From: Diaphorobacter sp. HDW4B
GTDB taxonomy: Bacteria > Pseudomonadota > Gammaproteobacteria > Burkholderiales > Burkholderiaceae_C
NCBI RefSeq assembly: GCF_011305535.1
Contig: NZ_CP049905.1
Span: forward strand, 1,312,001-1,376,000
Direction: 5' to 3'
DNA length: 64,000 nucleotides
Numbering within the stretch: the first letter of the stretch is position 1; each line of letters starts with the position of its first letter. Below, piece by piece: positions 45,256-52,345 of the stretch. Both the position numbers and the translations under genes were made by a program. The notes under the pieces were generated by a model. It saw only the letters and a program-made list of their open reading frames with translations. It was not told where the DNA came from and did not search any database.

Positions 45256-46326
45256 TTATCCAGCCAGTACCTTCAGCGCCTGCTGCCTGAAGCTGTCGTC
45301 CTTGAGCGAAGCCATGTCCGGCTTCGCGCGGATATTGCCCATGCGCAGGTGCCAGTCGACCAACTCATCGAGACCCACATAGGAAGGGGCAGCGTCGGCA
45401 GGAAAGTCCAGCATGGGCGTTTCGGGCACGACTTCCATGTTGTACTTCTTGAGGATGGTGACGAGTTCCGCGCGCCCCTTGTCGCCGTCGATGAAGGCGG
45501 CTCGATAGTCACGCAGCGCACGGATGTAGGCCACCATGTAGCGGCGACCGGCTTCCTGATTGCGGCGCGTGAGGCTGGCCGCATAGAGCAGATAGCCGTT
45601 GGGAAAATTGGGCTTGAACTGGTCCATCGACATCACGCGCACGCCGTTGATGCGCTGCAGCACCTGCGTGGCGTGCGGCTCGTTGATGCAGCCGCCGTCG
45701 ATGGATTTGTTGCCCATGCCCGCGACCACATTGGGCAGGCCGAGCTGCACGATCTCGAACGATTTTTCGCTCACGCCATGCTTGCGCGCCAGTTCCGACA
45801 CGAACCAGCTGCTGGGCGCGGCAAGGCCCGAAGCGATCTTCATGCCCTTGAGGTCGGCGGGCGTCTTGTAGCGCCCCGACTCCACCAGATCGCGGCGCAG
45901 CACCAGGCTGATGGAGCCATGGCCGGGCGAGTGCTGACCGGCGCTGGCGACGATGGTCAGATCGATGTTGCGCTGACGCGAATTGAAGATCATCGGGTTG
46001 GGGCCGCTCGCCAGCACGTCGAGCGCACCAATCGCCAGCGCCTGCGCCGCGTCGCCCGATCCGGGGAAGGCGCGGACTTCGACGTCCAGTCCTTCCGCGC
46101 GGAAATAGCCTTTTTCCACAGCAATCAGCGAGACCGCATCGAACATGGCGGCGATGATGCCGACGCGCAGTTTGACGGGCGGGTTCAGCGGTTGACGTGT
46201 CGCAGCAGTTTGCGCAAACACAGTTTGCGGGAGGCCCAATGCGAAAGGAACAAGCACCGCACCGGCCGAAGCGGCCAGCAGGTGACGCCGCGACAAACCA
46301 GCGGCATGGGTGGAGTGAGTGGACAT
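45256..46326 (-). CDS. NMT1/SsuA-like ABC transporter substrate-binding protein
   Basis: This 356-residue receptor has a twin-arginine signal (SRRHLLAASAGAVLVPFAL, cleaved after VFAQ) and an SsuA-like fold with LIAVEKGYFRAEGLDVEVRAFPGSGDAAQALAIGALDVL. It is last in an operon that also holds permease, ATPase, acetamidase-like, HbpS-like and porin genes. An amide, nitrile or aromatic nitrogen compound would fit the neighbours. The partner ATPase is broken, so import may not work. Confidence 0.87.
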   Translation of the reverse strand: MSTHSTHAAGLSRRHLLAASAGAVLVPFALGLPQTVFAQTAATRQPLNPPVKLRVGIIAAMFDAVSLIAVEKGYFRAEGLDVEVRAFPGSGDAAQALAIGALDVLASGPNPMIFNSRQRNIDLTIVASAGQHSPGHGSISLVLRRDLVESGRYKTPADLKGMKIASGLAAPSSWFVSELARKHGVSEKSFEIVQLGLPNVVAGMGNKSIDGGCINEPHATQVLQRINGVRVMSMDQFKPNFPNGYLLYAASLTRRNQEAGRRYMVAYIRALRDYRAAFIDGDKGRAELVTILKKYNMEVVPETPMLDFPADAAPSYVGLDELVDWHLRMGNIRAKPDMASLKDDSFRQQALKVLAG

Positions 46327-46360
46327 GACGTTGTGACCTTCTCGGATGGGATGGCGGCGT

Positions 46361-47227
46361 TCAGCCACGAGACTTCCACGGCAGCAGTCGGCGCTCGACC
46401 GCGTCGAGAATCGCAAACGAGCAGATGCCGACGGTCGCGATGACGATCAGACCGACATACATGTCTTCCACTGTCAGAAGCTGCCACGCACGCCAGATCA
46501 CGAAGCCGATGCCCGATTGGCTCGACACCATTTCCGCAGTCACCAGAAGCAGCAGCGCCGAACCCCATCCAAGGCGCAGACCGGCAAAAATCACCGGCAG
46601 CGCACCGGGCAGCGCGATGGTCAGATAACGGTTGAAACGACCCGCACGGAAGTTCTTTCCGACGTCGAGATAGATCTTGTCGATGTTGGCAACGCCCGCC
46701 GATGTGGCGATCAGCACCTGGAAGAACACGCCCACGGCGATGATGGCCCACTTGGATTCTTCGCCGATGCCGAAGATCAGCATCAACAGCGGCAGGATGG
46801 CGACCTTTGGAATCGGGAACAGCGCACCCACCAGCGGCTGCAGCGCAGCACGCACGATGGGAACAAGGCCCATGATCGCGCCCAGCATCACCGCCGGAAT
46901 CGCACCGAACAGAAAGCCGATGAGCGCACGCGACAGGCTGACCAGCGTGTGATAGCCGAGCGACTGATCCCACGGCGCGCTGAACATCATCGCGTAGAAG
47001 GTCTGAATGATCTGCGTGGGTGCGGGAAAAAATCGCACATCGAGCGCGCCGGTTCGCACGGCCAATTCCCACAACGCCAGCAGCGCGAGCGGTGCCAACA
47101 CCGCGGCGGTGCGTTCGATGGCACGTGGTGACATGAAGCGCGGCCCCTGCAATTGCACCGGTGCACGACGCTCGATCAAAGGTGCTGCACCTATGCTCTC
47201 GGCATTCAATGTGGCGGCGGTGTTCAT
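46361..47227 (-). CDS. NitT/TauT/SsuC-type ABC transporter permease
   Basis: This 288-residue permease has about six hydrophobic helices and the EAA-type loop YLDVGKNFRAGRFNRYLTIALPGALPVIFAGLRLG. The ATG at 47227 follows AAGGAGACAGC. It overlaps the end of the damaged ATPase gene by 4 bases and precedes the receptor by 34 bases. Confidence 0.9.
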   Translation of the reverse strand: MNTAATLNAESIGAAPLIERRAPVQLQGPRFMSPRAIERTAAVLAPLALLALWELAVRTGALDVRFFPAPTQIIQTFYAMMFSAPWDQSLGYHTLVSLSRALIGFLFGAIPAVMLGAIMGLVPIVRAALQPLVGALFPIPKVAILPLLMLIFGIGEESKWAIIAVGVFFQVLIATSAGVANIDKIYLDVGKNFRAGRFNRYLTIALPGALPVIFAGLRLGWGSALLLLVTAEMVSSQSGIGFVIWRAWQLLTVEDMYVGLIVIATVGICSFAILDAVERRLLPWKSRG

Positions 47228-48133
47228 GCTGTCTCCTTGGTTTGGCGGCTGCCCATTACCTCTTCGCGAAGCTCGGCCCACAGGCGGGTGCTGAGCGCGC
47301 CGTAGCCTTCGCTCGCACGCACTTCATAGGCACCGCGCGGGCGAGCCAATGTCACCTCGATATCGGCCTTCAACGTGCCAGGGCGCGAGGTCATCACCAG
47401 CGCGCGGTCGCTTAGCACCAGCGCCTCATCAATCGAGTGGGTGATGAACAGCACGGTCTTCTTGGACTCTTCCCAGATGCGCAGAAGCTCCTCTTGCAGG
47501 ATCGCCTTGTTCTGTTCATCAAGTGCCGCAAACGGCTCATCCATCAACAGGATTTCGGGATCGTTGGCGAATGCGCGGGCGATGGAAACGCGCTGCTTCA
47601 TGCCGCCCGAGAGCTGGTGCGGATAGGCTTCGCGAAACGCGTTCAGCCCCACCTTGTCGATGTAGTGCGAGACGATGTCGCGGCGCTCCCCACGCGGCAC
47701 GCCACGCATGCGCAGGCCGTATTCGACATTGCGCTCCACCGTCATCCACGGAAACACCGACTGCTCCTGGAACACCATCGAATGCAGTGGCTTGCTGCGA
47801 TCGAAGTGCGCCAATTCCAGCTCGCCGCTGCTGTGCGTCTCCAGCCCCGCGATGATGCGCAGCAGCGCAGCCCGATGGACCGACGATGCAGCAGAACTGG
47901 CCCTTGTAGACATCAAGCGTCACATCGTGCAGAGCGGTAACGCGGCTGCCACGGCTGATGAATTCCTTGCCCAGATGGGTGGTGCGAATCTGCGGAACCA
48001 ATGCGGCAGGATCGCGTTGAAGTGTTTCGCCAATGGGGCGAGAAGCCGTATCCAACGACGGCCTGGCAACGTTGAGAGGGAAAGGCGGCGCGGCCCCGAT
48101 GGGCAATGAGCGCTCTGCAAGCAATGCGGACAT
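47224..48133 (-). pseudogene. NitT/TauT/SsuB-type ABC ATPase, disrupted in Walker A
   Basis: The gene starts at 48133 (MSALLAERSLPIGAAPPF) and reads correctly to GQFCCIVGPSGC. It then leaves frame; the correct continuation LLRIIAGLETHSSGE resumes in another frame and runs to the stop at 47224, with signature LSGGMKQRVSIARAF and Walker B ILLMDEPFAALD. At 47866-47867 the expected 12 bases for GKST/GKSA are reduced to one base, so 11 bases are missing. The loss removes the Walker A lysine and shifts the frame. Either the gene is a recent pseudogene or the assembly is wrong here. Confidence 0.88.
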
Positions 48134-48173: not shown

Positions 48174-49343
48174 TCAAGCCTTGCGCATGGCCTGCGAAAG
48201 CCGCGCCTGCATCTCGGGCGAGAGAATGCTTTTGGGCAGCAGGCCGTGCATGGTCTGCAGCGGCTTGTTGGTGTAGACCGTCTGCAGTTGACGCGCAAAC
48301 TTGGTGACGCGGAAGCTGCCTGCCAGGCTGAACAGCGAATAGGCTTCCGCGCGGCTCATCTCGAGTGCCGGAGCGCTCCAGTCGAGCAGCGCGCGCAGGC
48401 AGTTGACGAGTGCGTCGTCCAGCGTTTCGCCAAAGCCCATGCCGATCCAATGCGTGGGCGTTTCTGCGAGCGGTGCCACCAGCGTCTTGCGCTTGTGCAG
48501 CACGTATTGAATGCGCAAGTCTTCCATCGCGGTTTCCAGCGCGGTCTGGTTGACGTTGCCATCACCCACCGTGGCGTGCGAGTTCGAGGTCCACACACGG
48601 CCACCCGCATGGAACACAGGCAGAAACAGCGATGAGCCCACACCCAGTTCATGCAGCCCGAGCTTGCCGCCATATGGCCCACTCAAGATGCCGCTGACGG
48701 GCTTGTCGCCCGGTGGCTGCGTGGCAAACAAACCCTGGCCGGGATGCAAGTCCAAAGTGATGCCGGGGCAGAACTCGGTAGTTTTGCGATCTTCAGAGAA
48801 CTTGAAATACTGCAGATAAGGCTGTTTGAAATCTTCCGGCAAGGTGCCGACGTTGACCGGCGAAGAGTTCCAGCCCCATCCGATCGGACGTGCCTTCAAG
48901 GTACGGATTTCGATCACATCGCCCACCTCCGCGCCACGCACAAACACCGGTCCGATGTTGGAATAAGGCCCCGCCGGATAGCGCCGACGGATCGGCTCGC
49001 GGTCGGCAAAGTTCATGCCGTACTTCGGCTCGTTGGCCCAGTTCAGCCAGGTGTTCGGGTAATGCACGATGTCGCCCGAATCGATGGTGACGGCCGCTTC
49101 TGCCGCTGGATCGAGCAGGCCCACGCGCACCGTCTTCTGGCTGCATTCGAGCACATGGGTGCGCGGTGCGCTACCGCCCGTCACGAGCGGCGCTGCGGTC
49201 GTTTTGTCGTGCGTTGTCGCGCAGCCTTGCAACACGGCGGCCGAGGCCAGACCCGCGCCGAGAAAGCCGCGACGCCCGAGATGCAAACGTGGCAATACGC
49301 GGTTGAAAGCTTCATCGTTTTGGGGCAGATCGACATGGTTCAT
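48174..49343 (-). CDS. Acetamidase/formamidase family protein, exported
   Basis: This 389-residue protein has the acetamidase/formamidase fold: HYPNTWLNWANEPKYGMNF in the substrate region, PVFVRGAEVGDVIEIRTL, GPYGGKLGLHELGVGSSLFLPVFHAGGRVWTSNSHATVGDGNVNQTALE. The metal-site features of the family, including GDG and E in the NQTALET block, are visible. A twin-arginine signal, LGRRGFLGAGLASAAVLQGC, ends in a Cys, so it may be a Tat-exported lipoprotein, which is unusual because most formamidases are cytosolic. It overlaps the HbpS-like gene by ATGA. Confidence 0.85.
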   Translation of the reverse strand: MNHVDLPQNDEAFNRVLPRLHLGRRGFLGAGLASAAVLQGCATTHDKTTAAPLVTGGSAPRTHVLECSQKTVRVGLLDPAAEAAVTIDSGDIVHYPNTWLNWANEPKYGMNFADREPIRRRYPAGPYSNIGPVFVRGAEVGDVIEIRTLKARPIGWGWNSSPVNVGTLPEDFKQPYLQYFKFSEDRKTTEFCPGITLDLHPGQGLFATQPPGDKPVSGILSGPYGGKLGLHELGVGSSLFLPVFHAGGRVWTSNSHATVGDGNVNQTALETAMEDLRIQYVLHKRKTLVAPLAETPTHWIGMGFGETLDDALVNCLRALLDWSAPALEMSRAEAYSLFSLAGSFRVTKFARQLQTVYTNKPLQTMHGLLPKSILSPEMQARLSQAMRKA

Positions 49344-49885
49344 TTGCGCACCTCGCTCGCTCCGAGTGCGCGAATGCCTGCGCGGCCTGCATCTTCATCC
49401 ATCTGCGACGACGCGGCGCTCGCGCCCACGGAGCCGATGTAGACACCGTCCTTGAAGATGGGCAACGAGCCCTGCGCAGGGAACATCGGGCCACCGTATG
49501 ACAGCGAACTGATCTGCCCGAACACGACCGAGTTGGCCTTGAAGCGCTCCAGCAATTCCTTGCCTGAAACGCCACCGGTGGCAGCGCTCGCAATCGCCTT
49601 GCCGCGCGCCACATCGAAGCTGCCGAACGGCACGCCATCCATGCGCGCGGCAGCCACCACATAGCCCGAGGTGTCCACCACCACCACGGAGATCGCGACC
49701 TTCTGCGAGACCGCATAGGCCACTGCGCCTTCGATCACCTTGTTGGCCTGCGCCAGCGAAATATTGGCCACCGCAATCGTGCCTTCCGGTTGCGCCGCCC
49801 AGCCAATGCTTGCGCCGCCCATGCTGACCGCTACAGCCAACGAAGTCTTGAGCAATGCGCTGCGGATGTTTGCAAGTGTCGTCAT
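49340..49885 (-). CDS. HbpS/GlcG-like (DUF336) exported protein
   Basis: This 181-residue protein has a Sec signal ending near GWAAQ and a GlcG/HbpS domain: VANISLAQANKVIEGAVAYAVSQKVAISVVVVDTSGYVVAAARMDG, then FDVARGKAIASAATG and GSLPIFKDGVYIGSVGAS. Related domains bind haem or corrinoid, or are of unknown use; the sequence does not settle this. GGAAGGAATCAAC precedes the ATG at 49885. It lies 40 bases after the porin gene. Confidence 0.87.
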   Translation of the reverse strand: MTTLANIRSALLKTSLAVAVSMGGASIGWAAQPEGTIAVANISLAQANKVIEGAVAYAVSQKVAISVVVVDTSGYVVAAARMDGVPFGSFDVARGKAIASAATGGVSGKELLERFKANSVVFGQISSLSYGGPMFPAQGSLPIFKDGVYIGSVGASAASSQMDEDAGRAGIRALGASEVRK

Positions 49886-49925
49886 GTTGATTCCTTCCAA
49901 TGGGAAAAATTGCTTTTGAAAATCA

Positions 49926-50969
49926 TCAGAAGCGATGGCGAACGCCGAGCGCCAGAATGCGTTGCTCGATCAGCACGTTGCGCTGCAGATCGCGATAAGC
50001 GACCGCGTAGATGTCGGTGCGCTTGGACAGGTTGTAGTCATAGCCGAGCGACCACACGCGGCGTTGGCTCGGTGTTGCTGGGTTCACGTCATCAATGTTC
50101 GAGTACGCATACGCGGCAGTGAACTTGCCGGGGCCGACGGGCACGCCCGCGCTCAGTTCGTACACGCGGCGCTTCACGTCGAGGTTGGCGTTGCTGCGGA
50201 AGGTCTCCTTGCTGTCGTGCACCTGGCCGAACAGCTCCATGAAGCCGAAGTCGTATTTCAAACCGGCCATGTAAGCCTTCTGCTTGCGACCGTTGTCGTT
50301 GGCGTTCAGGTTGATCTGGCGCGTGCCGATGGCTGCGCCCCATGGGCCGTTTTCATAACGGACCACGGCATCGACTGCACGCGCCTGCCGTGCGTTCGGA
50401 CCATCCGGAACTTCGGTACCGAACGAGTACAGGCCATCGAAGATGAAGCCGCCCATGTTCGGTGTCGTGTAGCGGATGCTGTTGTTGTTGCGCGTGTCGC
50501 CCTGCACATTGCCCTTGAACACCGTGGCGAACGATGGGCTGAATGTGGTCGATCCGGTCAACGGCGAGAAATTGCCGGTAGCCAGCGCATAGGGCGTGAC
50601 ATGGCGGCCAATGGTCACGGTGCCCCATTGTTTGGAGCTCAGGCCCACGATGGCCAGGCGGCCCCAGAACGAGTCCGCATCGTTGCGACCGTAGACGCCC
50701 GTGTCCACGCGGACGAAGGATTCGATGCTGAAGATCGCCTTCAGGCCCGAGCCCAGATCTTCCGAGCCCTTGAAGCCGATGAACGAGGTGGTCATGCCGC
50801 CCGAATTGACGACGCCGGTCGTCACGCCCGGTTTGCCTTCGGTGGCGGTGCGGACGGCACCGGCATAAGCGTCGACCACGCCGTAGATGGACACCTGGTC
50901 CTGTGCGTTGGCAAACTGGCAGAAAAGGCCGGCAACCAGCGCGGTTGCGGTAAGTGCGCGATGCTTCAT
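49926..50969 (-). CDS. Gram-negative porin (Neisseria/Burkholderia type)
   Basis: This 347-residue outer-membrane protein has a signal peptide ending NAQ-DQVSIYGVVDAYAG, alternating beta strands, the constriction-loop region FWGRLAIVGLSSKQWGTVTIGRHVTP, and C-terminal ILALGVRHRF with the terminal Phe needed for outer-membrane assembly. It should be a 16-strand trimeric porin. It is the first gene of the leftward six-gene operon and would admit the compound handled by it. Confidence 0.92.
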   Translation of the reverse strand: MKHRALTATALVAGLFCQFANAQDQVSIYGVVDAYAGAVRTATEGKPGVTTGVVNSGGMTTSFIGFKGSEDLGSGLKAIFSIESFVRVDTGVYGRNDADSFWGRLAIVGLSSKQWGTVTIGRHVTPYALATGNFSPLTGSTTFSPSFATVFKGNVQGDTRNNNSIRYTTPNMGGFIFDGLYSFGTEVPDGPNARQARAVDAVVRYENGPWGAAIGTRQINLNANDNGRKQKAYMAGLKYDFGFMELFGQVHDSKETFRSNANLDVKRRVYELSAGVPVGPGKFTAAYAYSNIDDVNPATPSQRRVWSLGYDYNLSKRTDIYAVAYRDLQRNVLIEQRILALGVRHRF

Positions 50970-51280
50970 CGAGTGTCTCCAAGGTTGGTATTTGTGTGCC
51001 ACCACCGGGTTATCCCGGGAGGCTCGATGCACACCTGAAACGGCTGTCACATCGAGTGGTTCCGAGACTAAGTGGCACTGCCTTGAAGACCGCAACCGCA
51101 GTTTCCGGACTCTTACCCATTCGTCCGAAAAACAAGAAAGAAATGGCTTATTCGGACGATTCGGTAAGCGACAGGATGTCGTCGTACACAGGGTTTTCCG
51201 CAGCGTCCCTACACTGCAATCCAACCGCTGGACCGGTCCTGCGGATCGCCGGATTCACACATTGAAAATTGGAGACATTC
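50970..51280. promoter_or_regulatory. Divergent control region, porin operon versus Bug receptor, with inverted repeat
   Basis: These 311 bases have no gene. They contain a perfect nine-base inverted repeat TCGTCCGAA (51121-51129) and TTCGGACGA (51151-51159), plus a related half-site TTCCGGAC near 51103. Closer to the porin start lies CCGGG-TTAT-CCCGG (51005-51018). The first is a candidate operator for a regulator encoded elsewhere. Confidence 0.45.
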
Positions 51281-52284
51281 ATGCAAACGCCCTCTTCTCT
51301 CAGCCGACGTGCAGTCACCTGGGCCGTCACCGCCTCCGTGGTGACAGGCACTGCGGGCTTGCTCGCCACCCTCAACGCGGCGCATGCCCAGCAAGCGGCG
51401 CCCTACCCCACCAAGGCGATCCGCATCGTGGTTCCGTTCCCGGCGGGCGGCACGCAGGACGTGTTGATGCGCATGGTCGCCGAGCCGCTGGCGCAGCGCC
51501 TGAAGCAACCCATCGTGGTCGAAAATCGCGGCGGCGCAGCGGGCAACCTGGGTGCCGATGTAGTGGCCAAGGCCGCGCCCGATGGCTACACGCTGGGCCT
51601 GCTCAGCGGCGTGCACACGGCCAATTCGGCCTTCTATCGCAAGATTGCCTTCAACCTGGAAAAGGACTTTGTGCCGGTCAAGGCCATCGGCGAATCAGCC
51701 GTGCTGCTGGTCACGCATCCCAAGACGCCGTTCTCGACCGTGCCCGAATTTCTCGCTTACCTGAAGGCGAATCCCGGCAAGGTGCAGATGGGCAGCACCA
51801 CCAGCTTCTCCACCGATCTGCTGAAAATGCAGTCGAACACCGACATCCAGTTCATTCCCTACAAGGGCGTCGGCGAAGCGCTGCAGGATCTGATCGGCGA
51901 GCGTCTCGACGTGGTGGTGGGCCCCAGCCTGCAACTCATTCCGCTGGTCAAAGAAGGCAAGGTGCGCGCTTTGGGTTTGGGCAGCACCCGCACGATTCCC
52001 GATCTGCCCAACGTCACCCCGGTAATCCAGAGCGTTCCCGGTTATGACGTCGGCATGTGGTTCGGCCTGTTCGCGCCCAAGGGCACGCCCGCTGCGGTGA
52101 TCACGCGCCTGAACACCGAACTGACCGAGTGCTCAAGCAACCCGCGCTGCGCGACAAGCTCGCGCAACAGGGCATCGACCTGAGCTATTCCAGCGCCACG
52201 CCGGAGCAGATGAACACGCGCATCCACGACGAAATCGTGCGCTGGAAGGCGCTGGCGGCCAAGACCGGCAACTACGCGAACTGA
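51281..52284 (+). pseudogene. Bug/TctC-family solute receptor, frameshifted near the C-terminus
   Basis: The gene starts at 51281 after GGAGAC with a signal peptide ending AHAQ and reads as a Bug receptor (YPTKAIRIVVPFPAGGTQDVLMRMVAEPL; IVVENRGGAAGNLG) to RLNTELT at about 52126. One base is then missing near 52128. The natural frame stops early at 52183 with a foreign tail, while the family-like ending VLKQPALRDKLAQQGIDLS continues in another frame to 52284. The intact protein would have 334 residues. About 50 C-terminal residues are lost, so the product is probably unstable. Confidence 0.85.
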
Positions 52285-52345
52285 TAACGCAGCCGTTCAT
52301 CCTGATCTCGGGTGGCGCAGACGCGGTTTCGTACATACTTGCGTC

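Follow-up and report, generated by a model that had tools for sequence, protein, structure and literature searches.

Has a nutrient importer of Diaphorobacter sp. HDW4B lost its ATPase, or has the deposited sequence lost eleven bases? The question is raised by a minus-strand gene with its ATG at 48133, which encodes the subunit that powers a bacterial ABC importer for nutrients and whose reading frame breaks at the P-loop, while the relatives' genes are unbroken. The gene is probably an ordinary recent pseudogene, produced by a loss-of-function deletion in a nitrate/taurine-type ABC importer operon. Coordinates without a contig prefix are positions in the window, the whole 64,000-nt stretch that was analysed (NZ_CP049905.1, 1,312,001-1,376,000). 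The gene and its surroundings are laid out as follows:

47867..48133, minus strand: 5′ part of the ATPase gene, 89 codons, the last of which read GPSGC
47866..47866, minus strand: junction base, where the relative Diaphorobacter caeni has 11 extra bases
47224..47865, minus strand: 3′ part of the ATPase gene in another frame, 213 codons and a stop, with LSGGMKQR and Walker B ILLMDEP
47537..47866, minus strand: upstream frame continued out of register to its own stop, ending at 47537
46361..47227, minus strand: permease (BPD_transp_1), open frame, its ATG overlapping the ATPase stop
45256..46416, minus strand: NMT1-like substrate receptor, open frame (limits are those of the ORF; the true start lies further in)
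48174..49343, minus strand: acetamidase/formamidase-like protein, open frame
49340..49900, minus strand: HbpS-like protein, open frame
49926..50975, minus strand: porin, open frame, start approximate
51269-52183, plus strand: TctC-type receptor, broken by a frame change near 52128 (52127/52128), about 4.3 kb from the ATPase break

At the junction, the minus strand reads GGTCCATCGGGCTGC (GPSGC) from 47881 to 47867, followed by a lone G at 47866 and by CTGCTGCGC from 47865. This is the arrangement that the first-pass annotation had described. The downstream frame begins LLRIIAGLETH... and stays open for 213 amino acids up to the stop at 47226-47224; an ATG at 47913 also opens it, giving 229 amino acids. 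A Viterbi scan of codon usage, which made no use of relatives, switches the coding frame at 47867/47868; the same-strand switches checked individually were this one and that at 52127/52128. No single continuous frame covers the PF00005 domain, and its Walker A element has no lysine, since the frame changes after GPSGC. The 3′ part matches the profile from position 27 of 137 onward. LSGGMKQR, ILLMDEP and ITHS, the signature, Walker B and H-loop of PF00005, all lie in the 3′ part. Counted from the coordinates, the product of the first frame has 198 residues, the final 109 of them out of register. The gene as sequenced cannot yield a complete nucleotide-binding domain: whether one frame is read, the other, or a frameshifted fusion of both, the P-loop is still without its lysine.

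Bacterial frameshift pseudogenes in general show a single indel, conserved flanks and intact orthologues. The ATPase gene resembles them in all respects but one, namely that its indel falls on the P-loop. GPSGCGK[S/T] is present in 11 of the 11 orthologous loci fetched from the genome scan (Diaphorobacter, Noviherbaspirillum, Polaromonas, Bradyrhizobium, Massilia and others); the window stops at GPSGC. This comparison upholds the claim of the first-pass annotation that the Walker A lysine is lost, and it rules out a lesion common to the relatives. Intact orthologues and a disabling change in the coding frame are thus both on record.

The closest relative found is D. caeni NR2-3-3-1 (locus L009), whose operon has the ATPase, permease and receptor in the same order as the window, and in which the permease ATG likewise overlaps the ATPase stop. 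Over the aligned stretches, the two are 94.8% identical in the 3′ part of the ATPase gene, 87.3% in the permease and 91.6% in the receptor. Unlike the window, D. caeni has an unbroken ATPase gene, longer by 11 bases at the P-loop and open across the junction, where it reads GPSGCGKSTLLR. The alignment contains one 11-column gap at the junction; the 13 bases bordering it on the left are identical, and the first 23 on the right include 1 mismatch. Both the 11-base deletion and the conservation of its flanks in two frames, as first proposed, are therefore borne out by the alignment, and the codon-usage switch agrees on the latter. In a search of six genomes of the genus, only G002, besides the window's own genome, matched most of the query; we count G002 and the D. 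caeni locus as one, since their contig coordinates coincide. The family search (E <= 1e-70) returned these same two genomes, the window's own and G002, out of 299. No close orthologue was found on a plasmid, the best of 13 plasmid records at E <= 1e-60 being 61% identical.

Among solved structures, the chains closest to the 3′ part are NrtC/NrtD and CmpC/CmpD, ATPases of nitrate and bicarbonate importers (PDB 8wm7, 9u9z; E 2.1e-41 against 8wm7_C and 6.5e-40 against 9u9z_D), which, unlike the window gene, are not interrupted at the P-loop. Among the titles listed by a literature search, none dealt with this operon, and no paper combined acetamidase, HbpS, ABC transporter and porin.

The porin, HbpS-like, acetamidase/formamidase-like, ATPase, permease and receptor genes all run in one direction on the minus strand. 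The frames of all but the ATPase match their Pfam families, the acetamidase over just 80 of 389 residues, and in this sense the neighbours are intact, as had been stated. The surroundings are not untouched, however, given the frame-broken TctC-type receptor. Within 52120-52280 (plus strand), the codon-usage scan follows the TctC coding signal in another frame as far as about 52280. A blastn comparison gave no match to the window's acetamidase-HbpS-porin-TctC stretch in the 12.9-kb D. caeni locus. In Noviherbaspirillum (L010) and Polaromonas (L011), matches to the acetamidase, HbpS and porin of this stretch (48174-52340) are located upstream of the ATPase.

If the gene had been broken for long, relaxed selection might be visible. 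The comparison with D. caeni gives a dN/dS of 0.058 in the 3′ part, 0.106 in the permease and 0.075 in the receptor. The ratio is higher, 0.32, in the 5′ part; this counts against a recent deletion, but the N-terminal stretch is poorly conserved in the other orthologues also, which are 35-60% identical to the window there over the aligned stretches. Amino-acid changes were then assigned to the window or the D. caeni lineage using the outgroups L010, L011 and L012, respectively. The counts (window/D. caeni) are 4/5, 3/3 and 4/2 for the 3′ part, 0/5, 4/4 and 1/0 for the 5′ part, and 8/5, 7/10 and 4/8 for the permease. In the 3′ part, 99 columns do not vary among the seven other sequences; the window differs at one of these (A59G) and D. 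caeni at none, and a single difference is too little to mean decay. Thus, neither dN/dS nor the lineage counts against D. caeni give a clear excess of changes after the break, one genome of the host species having been compared. Given that the 3′ part is without clear decay, the lesion is either recent or an assembly error. If the deletion is recent, the flanks have had little time to change and so look intact.

That the strain's gene is intact, with the 11 bases missing only from the deposited sequence, is rather unlikely in our judgement. The lack of decay fits an assembly or consensus error equally well, as relaxed selection is not clearly seen on either side, and the second frame break 4.3 kb away may be either decay or local sequence error. 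Further breaks exist elsewhere in the genome. The ABC ATPase family has 145 matches there, including a second broken locus at C1:482441-483601 (examined in L048, G000:C1:482000-484600), where two adjacent ABC ATPase genes, presumably a LivG/LivF-like pair, lie in four fragments, with one break at a tandem GGCTT GGCTT. The TctC family has 139 matches, the broken receptor of the window among them. One other (C2:455047-455788; examined in L049, G000:C2:454700-456400) is split, its frame changing near 455410; another has an internal TAG (C1:370718), and a third is a short remnant with two TAG (C1:563741). These breaks may be biological or sequence errors and can be read in favour of a real deletion as well as of an assembly error, and there is no sign of a mutator strain, the mutS and mutL frames being open. 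Nevertheless, the two-contig genome has ratings of 100% for completeness and 0.02 for contamination, and an 11-base gap is unlike the usual long-read error, which is a single-base change in a homopolymer.

The remaining alternatives accept the break and seek to keep a working product. Some sugar importers are known to share ATPases, and the genome holds 120 further matches to the 3′ part from which the importer could borrow its ATPase. None is a second copy, however: the next nine are just 41-49% identical, and 8 of the 9 have their own permease homologue no more than about 1.5 kb away. Simple replacement is therefore unlikely, and we consider a borrowed ATPase very improbable. Still less credence is due to programmed frameshifting that joins the two frames, or to an internal start that makes a working product of the 3′ part. 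The ATG at 47913 and the conservation of the 3′ part would suit this reading, but neither product would have the P-loop lysine, the orthologues, intact in 11 of 11 cases, do without any such mechanism, and the junction has no unusual hairpin as DNA (z 1.15). It is equally far-fetched, if conceivable, that the product of the internal ATG acts as a P-loop-less, ATPase-like subunit, coupling translation to the permease and keeping permease and receptor in a complex that does not pump but is perhaps sensory; if so, the absence of decay in the 3′ part would be explained.

Returning to a recent deletion, the loss may stem from slippage between two- or three-base repeats. The junction 15-mer occurs once in the window and carries no information on the cause. 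The first-pass annotation had stressed that precisely the P-loop residues were removed. The loss does lie at Walker A, but this carries little weight: by a hand count, an 11-base loss could be placed in some 900 ways, of which about 13 (~1.4%) would affect the lysine codon, and its position is no evidence of targeting because the frame shifts wherever the loss falls. ABC importers that lose the Walker A lysine no longer hydrolyse ATP. From the normal start, the 198-residue polypeptide would contain no nucleotide-binding domain, and the importer would be left unpowered. Moreover, the early stop falls about 310 bases ahead of the permease start, and expression of the permease and receptor may fall too, because the permease ATG overlaps the normal ATPase stop and translational coupling would be lost.

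The consequence is mainly one for annotation: the importer should be regarded as non-functional and the gene as a pseudogene until reads say otherwise. If the lesion is real, it would represent a very young inactivation, in which the operon's other genes are still intact.
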